From Chitinophagaceae bacterium (GTDB taxonomy: Bacteria > Bacteroidota > Bacteroidia > Chitinophagales > Chitinophagaceae): a stretch of DNA of 64,000 nucleotides. The notes under the pieces were generated by a model. The model did not search any database. It was not told the DNA's origin and worked only from the letters and a program-made list of their open reading frames with translations. The DNA lies in NCBI GenBank assembly GCA_019745155.1, contig JAIETM010000009.1, positions 1 through 64,000 of the forward strand, in the 5' to 3' direction. This document shows positions 7,257-37,843 of the stretch, piece after piece. Within the stretch, counting starts at the first letter, position 1, and every line of letters starts with the position of its first letter. A program made the position numbers and the translations under genes.

Positions 7257-7784
7257 TTATGCTTGCTTGATCATCTCTACAGCCAGTTGCAGCTTCACTT
7301 CATCGCTTACTACAATACCACCAGCTTCTGTTGTTGCAGTCCATTTCAGATCGAAATCCTTACGGTTGATTTTACCGCTGATTTCAAAACCTGCTTTCTG
7401 CTGACCCCAAGGATCTGTCATTGTACCACCAAACTCAACATCCAGTGTAACAGTCTTGGTAATGTCACGGATAGTCAGGTCGCCAGTAAGTGCATACTCA
7501 CTGTCTGATTTTTTCTGCAGACCACTAGAAACGAAAGTCAGTTTAGGAAACTGCTCAGCGTTGAAGAAATCATCACTCTTCAGGTGACCATCACGCTGTT
7601 CGTTGTTGGTGTTGATGCTGTTCACATCAGCTTCAAAGCTGATTTTTGCATCACTGAAATCATCAGCAGATGCTTCCATAGTTGCATCAAACTGTGTGAA
7701 GTTACCAGTTACGTTAGTAATCATCAGGTGCTTTACCTTGAAATTGATTTCGCTGTGCGCTGCGTCGATTTTGTACGTTGCCAT
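7257..7784 (-). CDS. YceI family lipocalin-like protein, cytoplasmic
   Basis: 175 residues with the complete YceI barrel pattern: YKIDAAHSEINFKVKHL at the start, then repeated strands such as SFEADVNSINTNNEQRDGHLKSDDFF and LTGDLTIRDITKTVTLDVEFGG. YceI proteins bind long isoprenoid or other amphipathic ligands. Most are periplasmic, but this one begins directly with the mature domain (MATYKID) and has no signal peptide, so it should stay in the cytoplasm. It sits between a pirin and OsmC. About 75 bp separate it from the pirin upstream, so an internal promoter is possible. Confidence 0.88.
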   Translation of the reverse strand: MATYKIDAAHSEINFKVKHLMITNVTGNFTQFDATMEASADDFSDAKISFEADVNSINTNNEQRDGHLKSDDFFNAEQFPKLTFVSSGLQKKSDSEYALTGDLTIRDITKTVTLDVEFGGTMTDPWGQQKAGFEISGKINRKDFDLKWTATTEAGGIVVSDEVKLQLAVEMIKQA

Positions 7785-17055: not shown

Positions 17056-18096
17056 TTATTTTGTTGAGAGATAATTGATTTCGTTTTGCGCTATTACTCG
17101 ATTGTAAAGTCGTATTTCATCAATTCTTCTTTCTGGTCTATTGGGCAATGACGGGTTATCCCATTTAACAATATTTAAATTTCCGTTGGGAGAGTTTATT
17201 TGTCCTGTAAAGTTGGATGTTGCAACTATTTGAGAGTTGAAATATAATTTCAATTGACTTCCATCATAAGTAGCAGCAACATGACACCATGTTTGGAATT
17301 GACTTTTAAGAATATCAGCGTATGCAATAGGCCCATTAGAGATGTTAAATATAAGTCTATACTTATCAGGCCCACTTGAGCCGTCATTCTGATCAAGCCC
17401 AACAAAAAAGCCATTACTAAAGTTTGTTCCATTGCCTACTATAATCAGAGTACTATATGAATAATTTTCTGGCTTAGAAAACCAAAAAGAAACAGAAAGT
17501 TTGTTTGTCAACCCTAATTGAGATGTTTGGGGAACAAGGATATAGTCATTAACAGTTGAAAAAGAGTAAGCTTTTGAAGAAATACCTAGACGATCGGGTA
17601 TTAAACTTGCTTGGCCAACTACTTGACCATTCCGATTATTCCCACTTTCATCATTCACACTACCATTAAATGGGTAATAAGCAATTAAACCATTGGCTAA
17701 ACTTGTTGGCGTTGCCGATAATTGCGCGATAATATCATTTAGCTGCGCTAATAAGGACGCTAACTGCTGATTAAGCGATGCTATTTGTGAGTTTATGTTC
17801 GTTATATTGGCATTAGCTTGCGCTAGCTGTGTATTTAACGTATTGATTTGTAGGAGTATACTTGTAATTTGTGTTTTGATTGAATCGACTCTGGCATTAA
17901 CAGAATTAATAGAATTATTCAATGCTGACATAGCTGCCATCAGTGAATCTGTTCTTCTTTGAAGCGTAAGCACGTCAGACCTTAGCTGCCTTATATCTCC
18001 CGAATAATCAACCTGCTTTTGACATGAGGTTATTGTACCAACTAAGGAAACCAAAATTGCAAAGCAGATGACTGATTTTGTTTTTTTTAAATGCAT
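17056..18096 (-). CDS. LamG/concanavalin-like lipoprotein with long coiled coil
   Basis: 346 residues. A lipoprotein signal ends at SLVGTITSC (Cys near residue 25). Residues about 30-130 are a continuous coiled coil with regular leucine, isoleucine and valine spacing and many Gln, Asn and Ser (repeats like INTLNTQLAQANANI). Residues about 137-346 form a LamG/pentraxin-like jelly roll (LIAYYPFNGSVNDESGNNRNG, SVSFWFSKP, WCHVAATYDGSQLKLYFNSQ, IDEIRLYNRVI). It should stand off the membrane on a stalk and bind a carbohydrate or surface ligand. It is divergent from the membrane protein at 18299 and may be functionally linked to it. Confidence 0.75.
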   Translation of the reverse strand: MHLKKTKSVICFAILVSLVGTITSCQKQVDYSGDIRQLRSDVLTLQRRTDSLMAAMSALNNSINSVNARVDSIKTQITSILLQINTLNTQLAQANANITNINSQIASLNQQLASLLAQLNDIIAQLSATPTSLANGLIAYYPFNGSVNDESGNNRNGQVVGQASLIPDRLGISSKAYSFSTVNDYILVPQTSQLGLTNKLSVSFWFSKPENYSYSTLIIVGNGTNFSNGFFVGLDQNDGSSGPDKYRLIFNISNGPIAYADILKSQFQTWCHVAATYDGSQLKLYFNSQIVATSNFTGQINSPNGNLNIVKWDNPSLPNRPERRIDEIRLYNRVIAQNEINYLSTK

Positions 18097-18298
18097 GACA
18101 TTTTTTACTCAAAAATGCGCCACTACAACTTTAATTTTTAGATTTAGGTTACTAAATGAGTTATCAATTAGGTACTCCTTTGAAATTGCAATAAATAGAT
18201 TTAAACTGTTATTTTTAAAGTATTAACAAATTAGGTTATTTTTTAATAACCATCCATGCCTGAACCCAAACCATGTAAGAGTTTAAAGTAATTCAAGA

Positions 18299-19714
18299 AT
18301 GAGACCATTTCTCCTGCTTCTGTTTTTTGTCGCATGTACAATGAAAAACAAGACCTTTTCTCAAGTATATAAGGTAAAGAGAACTGAACTATTAGAATAT
18401 TTATATAGATACGAGAAACCAATCTCCTTTATCACAAAAACAAGTAAAGTTGGTAACATTCAAAAACCAGATCAGATAATCCCTGTGTATCAAGGAAACG
18501 GCTGGTATCCTCAACAAAAAATTGTAAAGAATAATAAAGGATTATATGTATTGCTAGATGGAACTGGGCAAGTATATAGGGCTTCAGGTATCTCTGATTC
18601 TTTAATTGAGTTTAGCAGGGTTGATTCAACATTCTTCTTTGGTTACAATTTTGATGCTCTAACCCTATCATACAAAGACACTTTACTTTCAATCGGCGGA
18701 TATGGATATTGGCATACTAATGGTCAAATACGGGCTTTTGGTAATGGCGGAGAGTGGCTATTAAAACCTGTAGATAAAGAAGTTCCTGTAACAGTAAATG
18801 AGCAAATATTTTTTGTAGATACAAATTCGATTTATAGAATCAATTTCCCTTATAAAAATGAAGCGCTTAAGAACGGGATTTATAATAACAAATTAACTAT
18901 TGGAAAAATTGATTTGTCAAATCAAACATACAAGGAGCTAGGCTTTTTAAATAGCTCTAATAATAAAATACAGGACACGAAGAATAGTATAGTAATCAAT
19001 GCTGCTAACTTCGGAGGTGCCATATTCCTTTCAGGAAATAAGGATTGCTACCTGCTTGATTTTAAGAATAACATGATTTATAAAAACAAAAACACAAAAG
19101 TTTTTGATAATCTAATAGGCAGAAAAACAAACTACAATCCTAGATATATTTTTCAAATCGATGATACCATTTTTTTCTCATCACATGAAACTGAGAAGTT
19201 AAATAAGTTTATACTCAAAAGGGATGACTTTGAAGAAGAAGGTTCTCCTATTTATAAAACGAGTAACGAAATAAACTACACTTTGATAACTCAAATAATA
19301 ATAACAATTATAACGATCGTTTCATTAGTACTGCTTTTGGACAATAGAGGGAAAACATCATCAAATTCACTGGAAAATCAAGAAATAATAAGGATAACAG
19401 ATATATCAAGTACACTTTTTGATCAGTTTGAAACTGAAATAATCAGCTTTATAGTAAAGGAAAAGGAAATTTCCGTTGACCAGTTAAATAGTTTTTTAGG
19501 TCTTTCAAAAAAAACCTTCGAGATTCAGAAAAAAGTAAGAAATGAAACTATTAATAAGATCAATGCAAAATTCAAAAAAAATACTAACACTGATTCTGAT
19601 TTGATTGAAAGAACTAGATCAGAAATTGACAAAAGATTTTTTAATTATTTTATAAATCAACACAATCTAGATAAATATAACGCTCTTGGCAATGCCCACA
19701 GCTTGAATACTTGA
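18299..19714 (+). CDS. Single-pass membrane protein, paralogue A of an unnamed family
   Basis: 471 residues. A signal peptide is followed by an extracytoplasmic domain of about 300 residues that looks propeller-like (LLSIGGYGYWHTNGQIRAFGNGGEWLL, VYRASG, CYLLDFKNNMIY). One membrane helix lies at about 326-348. A cytoplasmic tail of about 120 residues follows (ISVDQLNSFLGLSKKTFEIQKKVRNETINKIN, then LIERTRSEIDKRFFNYFI). The tail has a helix-turn-helix look, but no family match comes to mind. The protein at 35458-36867 has the same order and the same conserved positions. The gene faces the LamG-like lipoprotein gene. Stop codons with the next, convergent gene abut exactly. A one-component surface sensor is inference. 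Confidence 0.55.
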   Translation: MRPFLLLLFFVACTMKNKTFSQVYKVKRTELLEYLYRYEKPISFITKTSKVGNIQKPDQIIPVYQGNGWYPQQKIVKNNKGLYVLLDGTGQVYRASGISDSLIEFSRVDSTFFFGYNFDALTLSYKDTLLSIGGYGYWHTNGQIRAFGNGGEWLLKPVDKEVPVTVNEQIFFVDTNSIYRINFPYKNEALKNGIYNNKLTIGKIDLSNQTYKELGFLNSSNNKIQDTKNSIVINAANFGGAIFLSGNKDCYLLDFKNNMIYKNKNTKVFDNLIGRKTNYNPRYIFQIDDTIFFSSHETEKLNKFILKRDDFEEEGSPIYKTSNEINYTLITQIIITIITIVSLVLLLDNRGKTSSNSLENQEIIRITDISSTLFDQFETEIISFIVKEKEISVDQLNSFLGLSKKTFEIQKKVRNETINKINAKFKKNTNTDSDLIERTRSEIDKRFFNYFINQHNLDKYNALGNAHSLNT

Positions 19715-32878: not shown

Positions 32879-34375
32879 TTATTTTTTTATAAACTTGGCA
32901 CCATTCCATTCCCACCTTAAGTTATCTTTTCGCTCGGAAGAGAAAATATCTACACTTCCGTTCTTATCAATATCCTGTACCCGAATATGATAGAACCTCG
33001 TCGTAGTTATATTATTCTCAACGTACTGAGATGTCTTATCGGAAAATGATTTACCACTATCACTTGATTTAAATATTGAAATAAAATAGTTGTTGATGTT
33101 ATTCTGAATAAAATTACCACTTGGCACTATTTCGAATATTTTGTCTTTATCAATATCTACAAAATCTATATTCATTAAATACCATTCTCCCGAAATATCA
33201 ATCTTGGTTGAATTAGTTAAAGAGAATGTTTTCCCATTGCCCCATAATACTCTGAAATCATTAGTGCGTGGGTTTCCGTTAGAAACATATGCAATTACTA
33301 AATCCAAAAATCCATCCGAATTAATATCGAATAGTTCTGATTGGTATACTGTAGGAATATCCCCAATACCACTAAAATCAATTGTAAAATTTGCATTACC
33401 ATCATTCCACATAATCCTACTTTTAACCCTATTTGCTGAATTGTGGAAGTTAAAAGTTATGATATCTAAATCACCGTCATTATCTATATCACCAGAACAT
33501 CCCGTATACCAAAACCCTTGATCCAGAAACTCAATTACTTTTGAAAATCCATTAGGTGAGTTAAGTATTAAATGGTTATTGTCGTTCAAGAAGGGGAATG
33601 CCCCAAAAGGAGGATCAACAGCTACATTAGAGAAAACATCTGGAAGTGAATCATTATTAAAGTCACCTACCAAAAGTTTTGTGCCATGTGGATTTATTAT
33701 AGAAGAGCCTGTATATGGATTTTGTATCAAACTCTCTCCATTCCCTAAAAATATGCTCGGTGGAGGATTTGGCGTAGGTGAGATATTTAAATCATAGCTC
33801 TCAAAATAAAAAACATCTTCAATTCCATCGCTATTAATATCTAACTGGACAGATTGTTCATCTATAAAAGGGTTGCTTAAGTACTTGCTACCGTCAGCTT
33901 TATATAACTGTGATGATGAATACCAATTATCGTAATTAGAAAGAGTATATGATGTTAATTTGTAGTTCTTATAAACGGCGCCACGCGTAATGCTGAATGT
34001 CTTTGTTAATACATTCGATGGGGTTGACTTTGAAGTAACAAGTAAATTGACTTTATATAAACTCTTGATTGATAAATTCCGTAAAACTAAATCCATTTGA
34101 CTCTGGTTTGAACTGGTATCAATTGTATGTACAAGAGAATTATTATCTGACTTTATAACTTCTAACTTATACTTCAATCCCTGAGGAGGCACCTTAGACA
34201 AAATATTAAGCACGACCTTCAATGTGTCAGCCTTAATTGGACTAACTGTATCTATACTTGCAGATAGCCTAATGCTTTCCTCGATTGTATTTTGGTTTTG
34301 ACTACTCTGTTCAATATTTTTTTTGCATGCTAAGAGCATGATTAAAAAAAAGATTATTGTGTACTTCATTCTCAT
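32879..34375 (-). CDS. FG-GAP/VCBS-repeat lipoprotein
   Basis: 498 residues. The start MRMKYTIIFFLIMLLAC is a short lipoprotein signal. After an Ig-like region (about 30-125), repeats of the FG-GAP/VCBS calcium-binding type follow: DINSDGIEDVFYFE, GDFNNDSLPDVFS, GDIDNDGDLDIITF, DINSDGFLDLVIAY, DIDKDKIFEIVPSG, DIDKNGSVDIFSSE. These make a seven-blade propeller with D-x-D/N-x-D-G loops. The protein is probably surface-exposed. It is very AT-rich and lies in an accessory island next to the DUF1566 lipoprotein. Ligand unknown. Confidence 0.8.
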   Translation of the reverse strand: MRMKYTIIFFLIMLLACKKNIEQSSQNQNTIEESIRLSASIDTVSPIKADTLKVVLNILSKVPPQGLKYKLEVIKSDNNSLVHTIDTSSNQSQMDLVLRNLSIKSLYKVNLLVTSKSTPSNVLTKTFSITRGAVYKNYKLTSYTLSNYDNWYSSSQLYKADGSKYLSNPFIDEQSVQLDINSDGIEDVFYFESYDLNISPTPNPPPSIFLGNGESLIQNPYTGSSIINPHGTKLLVGDFNNDSLPDVFSNVAVDPPFGAFPFLNDNNHLILNSPNGFSKVIEFLDQGFWYTGCSGDIDNDGDLDIITFNFHNSANRVKSRIMWNDGNANFTIDFSGIGDIPTVYQSELFDINSDGFLDLVIAYVSNGNPRTNDFRVLWGNGKTFSLTNSTKIDISGEWYLMNIDFVDIDKDKIFEIVPSGNFIQNNINNYFISIFKSSDSGKSFSDKTSQYVENNITTTRFYHIRVQDIDKNGSVDIFSSERKDNLRWEWNGAKFIKK

Positions 34376-34405: not shown

Positions 34406-34615
34406 TTGGGATTTTTGTCAACCACATATTTTAAGAATCTAGCTTACTTTTTTAAAAAGTATTTTCTATCATTAATAGGACTTTCACCTTCGTTGATCCA
34501 AAGGATAAGACTGCTGAAAAATTTATTACTATCAGGAGTAAATACTTTTTCAATTTTGGGTTTAGGGTTTTACTTATTAATATTTTTATTGGGTGATACT
34601 GTTAGAATGATCTAA
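34406..34615 (+). pseudogene. Possible remnant of an AraC-type regulator
   Basis: A 69-codon frame beginning with TTG whose translation resembles a decayed AraC DNA-binding segment: STTYFKN..FFKKYF, then GLSPS, IQRIRLLKNLLLSG and TFSILGLGF. Real AraC proteins have the same order around their first helix-turn-helix with extra residues between the blocks. There is no upstream ligand domain, the start is doubtful, and the 3' end overlaps the neighbouring convergent gene by 14 bp. It may instead be a chance frame; the resemblance was judged by eye. Confidence 0.25.
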
Positions 34616-35201
34616 CCGGCCTTACACGCATTACCGTTCTTTTTTCTCCTCCATTTTTTGCACCGTTTCCAAATTCTACATATGAAGCACCCATATTTCC
34701 TCCTGCTATATCCGTTGAACTCCAGTATGGTCGCGAAACTGTTCCAGTACCAAAACCACCAATCTTGTCTTTATTCAAAAACAACCTATGTAACTCTCCT
34801 AAACTTGGCAGAAACCAGTCCTTATACCCGCCACCGCTATAATTTCTACAAGCAAGCGCAGCGTAAGATCCATCACCAACCGACTTTATGATTGTATTTG
34901 TATTTGCTGCACCGGAACCAATAGCTGTGTCTGTAGCACCTGTAAATATGTACGTATTGTTAAGCCAAGGATATCCTATAGGCAAATCTGCCTCTGAAGT
35001 GATTAAGCCATGCTGCACATTTGGATCATAGCCTGGGTCATTTGACTGGAGTATGTATGCAACCACCCCACCTCCATATGCTTGACCAACTTTAACTGTT
35101 ACAGAGGACGGTGCTTTTTTCTTACATCCTATAAATAGAGGCAATAGAATCGATAATAATCCTATTGTGAATTTGGTTCTATTCTTTATCATGTATGTCA
35201 T
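34602..35201 (-). CDS. DUF1566-type lipoprotein
   Basis: 199 residues with a lipoprotein signal ending LFIGC (Cys about 26). The body has the DUF1566/Lcl C-terminal pattern: GGGVVAYILQS, HGLITSEADLP, GDGSYAALACRNYSGGGYKDWFLPSLGELHRLF, RPYWSSTDI and a final arginine-rich strand VMRVRPVRSF. This C-type-lectin-like fold is found in surface adhesion or carbohydrate-recognition proteins. It is divergent from paralogue B at 35458 across 256 bp, mirroring the lipoprotein and paralogue A pair at 17-19 kb. Confidence 0.75.
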   Translation of the reverse strand: MTYMIKNRTKFTIGLLSILLPLFIGCKKKAPSSVTVKVGQAYGGGVVAYILQSNDPGYDPNVQHGLITSEADLPIGYPWLNNTYIFTGATDTAIGSGAANTNTIIKSVGDGSYAALACRNYSGGGYKDWFLPSLGELHRLFLNKDKIGGFGTGTVSRPYWSSTDIAGGNMGASYVEFGNGAKNGGEKRTVMRVRPVRSF

Positions 35202-35445
35202 AATATTTTAGTGCTGAAAAGATGAGCGCAGATTCAAGAACTACCCCCGTTGAGCTCTATTATCCGCACTCATCGACATGTAATAAACTGCCTTCAAATG
35301 AAAAAAAACATAATACAAATCATCTATTAGGTAAGGAATTACCTATAGCGTCTAATTCAGTTTAATTAGTACATTATGAGCATATTACGATTTCGGTTTT
35401 TACTTAATTTGTTGAGGCCGTTTCGTGATACGGATGATATAATCA

Positions 35446-35457: not shown

Positions 35458-36867
35458 ATGATTTTTCGGTATACAATACTGTCCCTATTATTTACACTAA
35501 CTGCAGTCATCGGCTTTGGACAAAAGAACCTTCTAAGGTTTTTGCAGGCAGATACTGCATATACTGTTATAAAGGGCATCGACGTTCAGAATAAACTTAT
35601 CACCCTTCCGCAAGAGCTAAACTGTGAGACTAGTAGGCACCATTATATAGTTAGAAAGGGGCAGCTTTTTATTCAGGTGGATGGATCAGGTAAGTTATTT
35701 CAGGTAGATAGCTCAACCTTAGCTCCCATTCGCCTCGACAAAACCTGTTATGAGGGGTACAATTTCCTCGCTTATAACTTCAATTGGAAAGACCGTTTCT
35801 ACAGTGTTGGTGGCTGGGGCTTCTGGAAGTATGATGGAGGAATTCGATATTTCGAAGAGGCCAGTAGAGAATGGTCTATTATTCCCACAAACAGACGAGT
35901 TCCTGTTGCTCAGGTTATCAACTCACTTGGATGGCTGGATAAGGTCGATGAGAAATATTATATGATCTATAGTAAAGACGATGACTTCTATCTAAAAAAC
36001 CACGAAAAAGACCACGATTCCATATTTGTTCAATGTCTCGACCTTAAACGCATGACATGGTGGGATGAGCCTAAGTATCTTATAGCAGATAACCCTTTGA
36101 TAACAGGAAATACATTCAGAAAAATTATTCCAACATCAATGGGTCTTTTAGTAGAAGCTTGGAATAAATTTCAATTATTTGATTTTAAAGATAATAAGGT
36201 ATACACACTACCAGATAATAAAGGTGCCGCTATAGCTGCATTAACAACGAGAACACATCACGGATTTTTTATTCAACGCAACCAAGACCTTTATATCTAC
36301 GATCCATTGAAAGATTCAGTGAGTCCGCTGATTATTTCAAAGAAGGACTTTCTTAAGAAAACACAACCCATGTATACAACTCAAAGGGCGACTTTGGTAA
36401 GAGATCGCTGGATGATAAGTTTATTAATCATTATAGGCGGGTTGGTTATTCTGATTTCAACACTTTTATATAAGTATAGAAAACTGCTAAAAAGCTCTAA
36501 AGGTGTTATTATCCAAGAAAATCAAGGTGAGCCTATTCAGTTTAATCGCTCCCTCTCATTTGAAGAAAATCTAACATCCCAAGAGTTAGCGGTATTTGAA
36601 TTGCTGATTGATAATTCATCAAATAACAAGCTAACTTCAATTGATGAGATCAACAGGGTATTAGGTACTAAAAACAAGGATATTGCAGTTCAGAAAAATA
36701 TACGATCCGAAGTTCTGCAGAGTTTGAATGAGCGATTTCAGATTTATAGTACAACCAGCGACCTATTGGTTGAACGTGAACGTGCGGAATTTGATAAAAG
36801 AATATATCTGTATAAGATAAATGCTGCCTACCTCTTCAAGTTCAAGTCGAAGCGGTCAGGTGCTTAG
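35458..36867 (+). CDS. Single-pass membrane protein, paralogue B of an unnamed family
   Basis: 469 residues, same plan as 18299-19714. A signal peptide ends near GFGQ. The extracytoplasmic region has matching blocks (QVDGSGKLFQVD, YEGYNFLAYNF, YSVGGWGFWKYDGGIRYF, RRVPV). One membrane helix lies at about 318-339. The cytoplasmic tail has LTSQELAVFELLI, DEINRVLGTKNKDIAVQKNIRSEVLQSLNERF and LVERERAEFDKRIYLYKI. The blocks GGxGxW and R-E-x-DKR-x-x-Y are shared with paralogue A. The tail may be a helix-turn-helix output domain. It faces a DUF1566 lipoprotein gene. A sensor of envelope state that controls the neighbouring lipoprotein is inference; no published family comes to mind. Confidence 0.55.
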   Translation: MIFRYTILSLLFTLTAVIGFGQKNLLRFLQADTAYTVIKGIDVQNKLITLPQELNCETSRHHYIVRKGQLFIQVDGSGKLFQVDSSTLAPIRLDKTCYEGYNFLAYNFNWKDRFYSVGGWGFWKYDGGIRYFEEASREWSIIPTNRRVPVAQVINSLGWLDKVDEKYYMIYSKDDDFYLKNHEKDHDSIFVQCLDLKRMTWWDEPKYLIADNPLITGNTFRKIIPTSMGLLVEAWNKFQLFDFKDNKVYTLPDNKGAAIAALTTRTHHGFFIQRNQDLYIYDPLKDSVSPLIISKKDFLKKTQPMYTTQRATLVRDRWMISLLIIIGGLVILISTLLYKYRKLLKSSKGVIIQENQGEPIQFNRSLSFEENLTSQELAVFELLIDNSSNNKLTSIDEINRVLGTKNKDIAVQKNIRSEVLQSLNERFQIYSTTSDLLVERERAEFDKRIYLYKINAAYLFKFKSKRSGA

Positions 36868-37233: not shown

Positions 37234-37695
37234 TTAATCAATCCAGTCAAAAAGGTATTTTCCATTATAAGACACAGCAAAGTCTTTCAAAAACTGCAGA
37301 TACTCCTGTTTGAAACTTTGCTTTGCATGATGTAATTCCTGATTATTGATATAGTCTATAACTACATCCAACTGCGAGCTTGCATACGAAAACACACCAA
37401 ATCCCTCTTGCCATTGAAATCGTCCAGAGACAAACCCTCTTTCATTAATCCATTTTGAAGAACTAGCCTTTATATCTCTCACTAGATCAGCAATAGTAAT
37501 ACTGGGTTTAACACTGATTAATATATGAATATGATCTGCAACCCCTCCTACTGCGTATACTTTTTGACCTTTTGCATTAACAATACCGCAGATGTATCTG
37601 TACAATTCATCTCGCCACGACTTTGCGATTAGGCTCTGACGTCCTTTTACAGCAAAAATAACCTGCACATAAATTTGAGCATATGTATTCGCCAT
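37234..37695 (-). CDS. REP-associated tyrosine transposase (IS200-like, Y1)
   Basis: 153 residues from ATG 37695 (MANTYAQ; an upstream ATG at 37719 is possible). The HUH motif is DHIHIL (H55, H57) and the single catalytic tyrosine is Y115 in VVIDYINNQELHH. This matches Y1 relaxase-like transposases that cut and rejoin single strands at hairpins. Full length and intact motifs suggest activity. Four hairpins of matching design lie immediately beyond its 3' end. It is not flanked by clear IS200 ends, which fits a domesticated RAYT. Confidence 0.88.
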   Translation of the reverse strand: MANTYAQIYVQVIFAVKGRQSLIAKSWRDELYRYICGIVNAKGQKVYAVGGVADHIHILISVKPSITIADLVRDIKASSSKWINERGFVSGRFQWQEGFGVFSYASSQLDVVIDYINNQELHHAKQSFKQEYLQFLKDFAVSYNGKYLFDWID

Positions 37696-37843
37696 TCCTT
37701 GCTCATTATAGATACACATATCAATTGTAAAGCATAGCTGAGCTGCACAATTGTCCTCCCCCTAAATTAAATCTAGAATAATTTTAAGCCAAGACACACA
37801 AATCACCTCCGGCTATAATACTTCAACTTTCACACTACCACCC

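Follow-up and report, generated by a model that had tools for sequence, protein, structure and literature searches.

A Bacteroidota family of membrane proteins with a predicted Kelch propeller and winged-helix tail, and tandem 12-bp boxes upstream of its genes

We analyzed positions 1 to 64,000 of contig JAIETM010000009.1 from a Chitinophagaceae bacterium (GenBank assembly GCA_019745155.1), hereafter called the window, in which two loci, A and B, each carry a gene for a membrane protein (P0001 and P0002, respectively) that stands divergent from a lipoprotein gene. P0001 is a member of an unnamed Bacteroidota family, and we propose, with a probability of about 70%, that it is a membrane-anchored one-component transcription regulator that controls its own gene and the divergent neighbor through tandem 12-bp boxes. 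The homology of the family members, the tandem sites with their spacing and placing, and the recurrent pairing are observed, and the domain folds come from structure prediction; from these we infer DNA binding at the boxes, the membrane topology, autoregulation, control of the lipoprotein, and a sensory role. Table 1 lists the features of both loci.

Results

Predicted domain architecture of P0001

A first-pass annotation of the window had described P0001 and P0002 as paralogs with the same layout and with shared GGxGxW and DKR blocks, and had assigned to P0001 a propeller-like outer domain and one membrane helix, all of which held on closer analysis. The open reading frames (ORFs) lie where it had placed them, the two proteins are 26% identical across 403 aligned positions (E 1e-26 in a single comparison), and they were the only matches in a search of the genome at E 1 or better. 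The shared blocks contain residues that are invariant in the 73 aligned rows of the family (G133, G134, G136, and W138 in the first; D444 and R446 in the second), as are, among others, N397, G401, R414, and N422. These structure alignments comprise 73 of 83 rows, 10 near-copies having been excluded.

An AlphaFold2 model of P0001, computed with 72 other rows in the alignment, reached a mean predicted local distance difference test (pLDDT) score of 88.5, and in this model the outer domain has a Kelch fold. Among the 50 Foldseek matches listed for residues 73-313, all were Kelch domains or Kelch-like designs, and the best match in VIA was LZTR1 (Z 12.9, root mean square deviation [rmsd] 4.0, 237 residues aligned). 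At least one Pfam Kelch model exceeded its cut-off in 3 of the 10 distant members scanned, and none did so in P0001 or P0002. The fold and the GGYG blade signature are common to P0001 and Kelch beta-propellers such as LZTR1, KLHDC2, KEAP1, and YjhT; unlike these, the propeller of P0001 is built into a bacterial membrane protein carrying a predicted winged helix.

Between the membrane helix and the tail of P0001 lies a linker (residues 353-369) with pLDDT below 50 in the model. The tail modeled alone scored 88.7, with the order H-b-H-H-b-b-H of a winged helix. All of the 50 Foldseek matches listed for it were winged-helix regulators, nearly all of the MarR type and several of them DNA bound, at modest E-values (best 6e-3, none below 0.001). 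The best VIA match was 5h3r_B, a MarR protein with operator DNA (Z 9.5, rmsd 3.7, 85 residues aligned); 69 chains reached Z 8 or more, those listed being MarR-like and other winged-helix proteins. The tail is thus predicted to be a winged helix of the DNA-binding type that most resembles MarR domains. Winged helices usually turn their third helix and wing toward DNA, and the most conserved residues of the tail include several on these two elements: the third helix (residues 407-429) holds the invariant R414 and, at its start, the near-invariant Q410 and K411, and the wing holds the near-invariant R440 together with the two invariant residues of the DKR block. Ten phylum-wide members likewise have an invariant arginine in the third helix and an invariant DxR in the wing.

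Searches by sequence returned no family for this tail. Its best match among PDB sequences had an E-value of 0.52, Pfam gave no consistent family across 73 tails (MarR_2 touched 2 of the 73, best E 0.12), and Trans_reg_C (PF00486) was not matched in the domain search of P0001. Candidate families were set aside after hhalign comparisons with local alignments, in which the tail had a probability of 6.6% against MarR, 1% against the OmpR family, and 0.1% against four DUF6377 (PF19904) proteins; one distant member matches DUF6377 weakly (E 1.3e-4, 22.1 bits, below the cut-off of 36.7). Domain searches found no histidine kinase, receiver, or AraC domain in P0001, P0002, or ten members.

Distribution and conservation of the family

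No fitting family was found for P0001 in Pfam, NCBIfam, or PHROGs. A search with P0001 gave matches in 5 of 99 related genomes, its own included, and profile searches matched 14 of 296 genomes across the phylum (one of which, G306, was set aside since its match falls outside the layout) and, within the same taxonomic family, 27 of 394 at E 1e-10, with a maximum of four matches per genome. A contig scan of named genomes yielded 128 relatives, mostly from Chitinophagales or unnamed Bacteroidetes assemblies, the best 80 of which were retained. Ten distant members in nine genomes of other Bacteroidota families have the same layout, and a profile of 73 close members aligns with that of these ten from the propeller through the whole tail (profile-profile probability 99.8%, E 7e-29). 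In a tree of 83 rows, locus A falls within a clade of 24 (support 99/97); a smaller tree was built from 36 rows with more than 400 residues and 140 bits.

Two outlying members deserve mention. One distant member (L041:208-2820) has LamG-like and Kelch parts, both weak by Pfam, followed by a membrane helix; the part beyond this helix resembles, by eye, a SARP-type winged helix plus activation domain. Another family gene lies on a contig filed as a Comamonas assembly (L130) and groups closely with Chitinophagaceae rows; the contig is probably misbinned.

Tandem 12-bp boxes upstream of family genes

Boxes of the approximate sequence TTAGGTTANNNA recur at 12-bp steps upstream of family genes, often in threes. 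Repeated AGGTTA boxes were visible by eye, and TAGGTT occurs on either strand in 18 of the 24 rows of the locus A clade, against 4.9 expected. A free motif model gave a diffuse result and was replaced by a spacing test, which is free of any motif model, and by a tied three-box model. In the 70 of 83 upstream regions kept after thinning, direct GGT repeats were counted 24 times at a spacing of 12 bp (1.9 expected) and 18 times at 24 bp (2.0 expected). None of 200 shuffles was as high, and the next count, among the six best spacings listed per box, was 7 at 52 bp. The 28 rows outside the locus A and DUF47 clades alone gave 17 (12 bp) and 12 (24 bp) against about 1. The rows next to DUF47 genes, which are close relatives, gave 3 versus 0.5 at 12 bp and 2 versus 0.6 at 24 bp for GGT, and 23 versus 7 at each of the two spacings for a looser box, while 98 control upstream regions of the same loci showed a weak excess (6 versus 2.3 at both).

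The tied three-box model reached a log-likelihood of 254, compared with 52 +/- 7 in 20 shuffles that were each refitted. A score of at least 14 bits was attained by 59 of the 83 family regions and by 4 of the 98 controls, the two best controls being one region of locus L129 read from both sides, near a family member. When 818,859 bases were scanned at more than 15 bits, 68 matches (overlapping registers counted) fell in the 450 bp preceding family genes; of the 7 outside these stretches, three were in L129. There, a 23.7-bit three-box site (L129:2732-2767) is flanked by a lipoprotein gene and a sulfatase gene, the latter apparently split by a frameshift, and this site could be a genuine target in addition to the regulator's own gene. 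At another locus (L105:6199-7635), the family gene has decayed into three fragments and a 22.9-bit site is kept at 7676, upstream of the first fragment.

The boxes are also regularly placed. At locus A, 47 bp separate the triplet from the start codon of the lipoprotein and 155 bp from that of the regulator. Distance to the lipoprotein was measured on 11 of 14 lipoprotein pairs, leaving out L127 (16.9 bits), L161 (6.5 bits), and locus B, and with an internal Met taken as the lipoprotein start in L107, L115, and L116. In seven of the 11, namely locus A and six others whose regulators are 24-34% identical to P0001, a triplet of at least 14 bits is separated from the lipoprotein start by 44-53 bp. 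The distance to the regulator, by comparison, is 155 bp at locus A and 172-173 bp in five other pairs, with the lipoprotein distance unshifted. As for the remaining four pairs, the triplet is at +59 (7 bits) in L111 and at +293 in L117, L114 has only a pair of boxes at +47, and L122 has none. Among rows without a lipoprotein, the triplet lies 45-109 bp before the regulator start in 25 of 27 rows with DUF47, 4 of 4 with an M16-like peptidase, and 8 of 12 with a codirectional gene, and it is present in 10 of the 17 other divergent rows, 107-172 bp before the regulator start.

Variants of the box keep the same step. In the clade of G010, G501, and G653 the boxes read GGTGA by eye, with the 12-bp step retained. 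Six boxes of this type, three per strand and back to back, stand between a family gene and a LamG lipoprotein gene at L078:5766-5837, where they cover 72 of the 152 bp that separate the two.

A second element was found in the locus A clade by a fixed-width motif search (width 26), which scored 190 for 23 of the 24 rows against 82 +/- 3 in 10 shuffles, the nulls being run from 25 starts and the real data from 60; L121 was too short and was excluded. In 20 of the 23 rows the 26-bp motif begins between -92 and -73 (elsewhere in L128, L122, and L125); measured from the regulator start, it begins at about -91 in most of the clade's rows, and locus A has it at -73.

Neighbors of the family genes

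The first-pass annotation had placed both family genes divergent from lipoprotein genes in AT-rich islands. Both points are borne out: the intergenic regions measure 202 bp at locus A and 256 bp at locus B, and GC content is 31-35% at 17-20 kb (locus A) and 33-38% at 33-37 kb (locus B), against 40-45% in the flanking kilobases except for 37-38 kb (38%). Across the family, on the other hand, a lipoprotein is one partner class and not the rule. The 83 rows divide into 14 with a divergent lipoprotein, 27 with a divergent DUF47 gene, 4 with an M16-like peptidase, 4 with another exported protein, 17 with some other divergent gene, 12 with a codirectional gene, and 5 at a contig edge. These labels come from greedy ORF calls and a simple lipoprotein rule, except that the lipoprotein label of L107 was assigned manually; the names M16 peptidase, Pit transporter, and response regulator were given by eye, and DUF47 identity (PF01865) was checked in one row.

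Pairing is more frequent in the locus A clade, where 11 of 20 rows with a visible upstream gene have a divergent lipoprotein (10 by the rule, plus L107), against a background of 92 in 539 under the same rule. The binomial p for 10 of 20 is 7e-4 and that for 11 of 20 is 1e-4; as the rows are related, neither value is a true probability. Of ten lipoproteins, Pfam recognized LamG in 8 and FG-GAP in 1, while the remaining one has FN3 and a Fib_succ_major match below threshold; a later domain search added three further LamG partners. A search with P0003, the lipoprotein of locus A, gave 20 matches in 12 of 24 genomes chosen for bearing the regulator; 8 of the 20 adjoin a family gene within loci of about 4 kb, or 7 of 19 without P0003 itself. 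The seven regulators next to these homologs belong to four separate clades of the 36-row tree, two of them (G002 and G634) to the clade of locus B. The genome of the window has two other LamG matches (L240 and L242), and neither locus has a family gene; L242 contains a 13.6-bit three-box match inside a coding gene, and the L240 locus ends short of the start of its long gene.

The DUF47 class has a feature of its own. In L132, L133, L147, and other loci of this clade, a conserved leader is found on the DUF47 strand about 100-250 bp upstream of the family gene, consisting of a hairpin (AGCTTTTGGGGGAAAGCT) and then a strong terminator-like hairpin with a T-run; the divergent DUF47 operon includes, by eye, a Pit-type transporter. 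This leader looks like an attenuator or riboswitch-like element, although its hairpin had no match in Rfam for the 4 loci compared.

Features of loci A and B

Signal peptides and lipoboxes were judged by reading the sequence. At locus B, the inverted repeat between the two divergent genes may or may not be the site of that locus. The FG-GAP lipoprotein downstream of the divergent one has, by eye, a close homolog at L122:3193-4710, also with FG-GAP repeats, which is the direct divergent partner of a locus A clade regulator in another genome. A Y1_Tnp (IS200-like) transposase gene (37234-37719, minus strand) adjoins locus B, in keeping with a mobile island. In L045, a 23.4-bit three-box match falls within the neighboring coding gene.

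Table 1. Positions in the window of the genes, domains, and candidate sites of loci A and B
Feature	Position	Strand	Basis and remarks
Putative regulator gene, locus A (P0001, 471 aa)	18299-19714	+	ORF, family searches, structure model; signal peptide, Kelch propeller, one membrane helix, C-terminal winged helix
Signal peptide of P0001, residues 1-22 (approximate)	18299-18364	+	Sequence; N-terminal helix 2-14 in model
Kelch beta-propeller of P0001, residues 73-313, thought to lie outside the membrane	18515-19237	+	Foldseek and VIA matches; Pfam Kelch in distant members
GGYGYW of the P0001 propeller	18695-18712	+	Sequence
Membrane helix of P0001, residues 327-350	19277-19348	+	Model and sequence
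Predicted winged-helix domain of P0001, residues 376-452, thought to be cytoplasmic	19424-19654	+	Models, fold matches, conservation
Putative operator, three tandem 12-bp boxes TTAGGTTACTAA / ATGAGTTATCAA / TTAGGTACTCCT	18144-18179	+	Three-box model, 23.4 bits
Second element, perfect inverted repeat GGTTAT-TTTTTA-ATAACC	18234-18251	.	Inside the clade-conserved 26-bp motif
Partner lipoprotein (P0003, 346 aa)	17056-18096	-	ORF; lipobox ...TITSC, Cys25; coiled-coil-like stalk at about 30-130; LamG domain
LamG domain of P0003 (PF13385)	17074-17550	-	Pfam, E 1.2e-18
Second family member, locus B (P0002, 469 aa)	35458-36867	+	ORF, pairwise comparison, genome search
Divergent lipoprotein of locus B, 199 aa, Lcl_C/DUF1566 domain	34602-35201	-	35.7 bits, just above the cut-off of 34.9
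FG-GAP lipoprotein, downstream of 34602-35201 on the same strand, possible second partner	32879-34375	-	Domain search
Single inverted repeat TAGGTAA-GGAA-TTACCTA, locus B intergenic region	35328-35345	.	By eye; box-like, not a triplet; may be chance

Discussion

We propose that the Kelch propeller of P0001 would read an envelope signal in the periplasm and that the single helix would span the inner membrane, with the flexible linker carrying the winged helix in the cytoplasm. The winged helix would bind two or three 12-bp units head to tail, several membrane-held monomers occupying the box array upstream of the regulator gene, and this binding would control transcription of the regulator and of its divergent partner. 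At locus A, the partner would be a surface lipoprotein whose coiled-coil stalk bears a lectin-like LamG head. This head suggests a glycan or a surface as the signal, and the propeller might also read the lipoprotein itself. Soluble MarR dimers usually bind palindromes, and the direct 12-bp repeats would be easier to reconcile with a row of membrane-held monomers than with a palindrome-bound dimer like that of MarR.

Several observations weigh against this proposal. The tail has no sequence-level membership in the DNA-binding families tested by Pfam, PDB sequences, and profile-profile comparison. The box signal is thinner around locus A itself, where 9 of the 24 upstream regions of the clade reach 14 bits, the GGT count is 4 at both 12 and 24 bp (against 0.3 expected at either spacing) and just as high at 40 bp, and a looser box is not significant at 12 bp (14 versus 8.7). 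The box model was trained on the same regions that it scores, four controls reach 14 bits, and only 15 of the 83 family regions beat the best controls. In a second set of loci, partly with the same genes, 15 of 31 upstream regions score at least 14 bits. No triplet was found upstream of the distant members, of locus B (4.2 bits with the three-box model), or of its four clade mates. Moreover, a lipoprotein neighbor is not universal in the family, and the site is a surer mark of the regulator gene than of the partner, as the codirectional rows that keep it illustrate.

In a competing explanation, the protein binds the tandem sites and controls only its own gene, the lipoprotein being a neighbor by descent and not a target. 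The triplets close to the regulator start in rows with DUF47, an M16-like peptidase, or a codirectional gene agree with it, as does the frequent change of partners (the label of divergent lipoprotein requires 10 changes on the tree). We nevertheless hold it to be unlikely: in the seven lipoprotein pairs the distance to the lipoprotein start is kept, even at locus A, where that to the regulator differs from five of the others, LamG lipoproteins recur as partners in four clades, and the sulfatase neighbor in L129 has a site of its own. Winged helices can also bind proteins, so the tail could instead be a protein-interaction module and the boxes could belong to another regulator or to a shared promoter element. 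The missing sequence match to a DNA-binding family and the missing site at locus B would be explained in this way, but the boxes track family genes and are scarce in the 98 other upstream regions of the same loci, and the conserved residues of the tail sit on the DNA-facing elements of winged helices. In addition, the clade of L043, L077, and L078 has GGTGA in place of GGTTA (by eye), with the 12-bp step kept and QKRQR in the third helix; since QKR alone also occurs elsewhere, this is only a candidate for co-variation. We consider a protein-interaction module highly improbable. Hardly plausible, finally, is a variable, AT-rich island selected for its surface lipoprotein (as an adhesin, for surface variation, or as a phage receptor) with the membrane protein as a non-regulatory passenger. 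Low GC content, patchy spread, and the variety of heads (LamG, FG-GAP, DUF1566, and FN3) would suit such an island, yet members exist without any lipoprotein, DUF47 is a conserved neighbor in 27 rows, and tail and propeller residues are conserved across the phylum.

The first-pass annotation had proposed a one-component envelope sensor that controls its partner lipoprotein. As a reading of lipoprotein-paired members, this idea has gained from the DNA-binding type of the predicted tail, from the 12-bp sites in seven of 11 lipoprotein pairs, and from the LamG partners in four clades. It does not hold as a general rule: the outcome that the annotation had named as refuting it, homologs that lack a consistent lipoprotein neighbor, applies to much of the family.

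Known systems offer partial parallels. By structure prediction only, P0001 has the layout of a transmembrane one-component regulator: as in ToxR, TcpP, and CadC, a single chain unites a sensor outside the cytoplasm with a membrane helix and a domain of the DNA-binding type. ToxR and CadC carry an N-terminal DNA-binding domain of the OmpR/PhoB type; the winged helix of P0001 is not of that type and sits at the C-terminus, preceded by a signal peptide and a Kelch propeller. P0001 would work like ToxR or CadC and is outside that family by domain order and domain type. With MarR regulators (PF01047 and PF12802) it has the tail fold and the R..DxR of the wing in common, and differs from them in being membrane bound, in its direct 12-bp repeats, and in the lack of a significant sequence match. 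The hybrid two-component systems and Reg_prop sensors of Bacteroidota have an extracytoplasmic propeller, a membrane helix, and a cytoplasmic DNA-binding end, as P0001 is predicted to have; P0001 differs in its Kelch type of propeller and in that the domain searches found no kinase, receiver, or AraC domain.

In a literature search that covered open-licence papers, we found no report of a Kelch membrane transcription regulator or of the lipoprotein pairing described here, and the tandem 12-bp boxes upstream of family genes are a new observation. According to a survey of transmembrane transcription regulators, such proteins are frequent in Bacteroidota, and about 91% of them are covered by 11 common DNA-binding domains (PMC10269533). 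A survey by domain libraries would probably miss a tail of the P0001 type because no Pfam DNA-binding domain is found in P0001.

More speculatively, and with considerable doubt, the pair may be a modular unit in which an inner-membrane Kelch propeller monitors whether its own partner, the surface lipoprotein, is present, transported, or bound to a ligand, and acts back on the gene of that partner through the tandem 12-bp operator. Heads (LamG, FG-GAP, DUF1566, and FN3) and whole partners would be exchanged while the sensor, the winged helix, and the 12-bp step are kept, and such units would form a large unrecognised class of envelope regulators in Bacteroidota. A single small purified domain and a 36-bp oligonucleotide would suffice to put the main proposal to the test. 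If true, this proposal would add a class of regulators that is unnamed in Pfam, NCBIfam, and PHROGs, and the predicted DNA site would allow its targets, among them surface lipoproteins, DUF47 operons, and sulfatases, to be read from Bacteroidota sequence.

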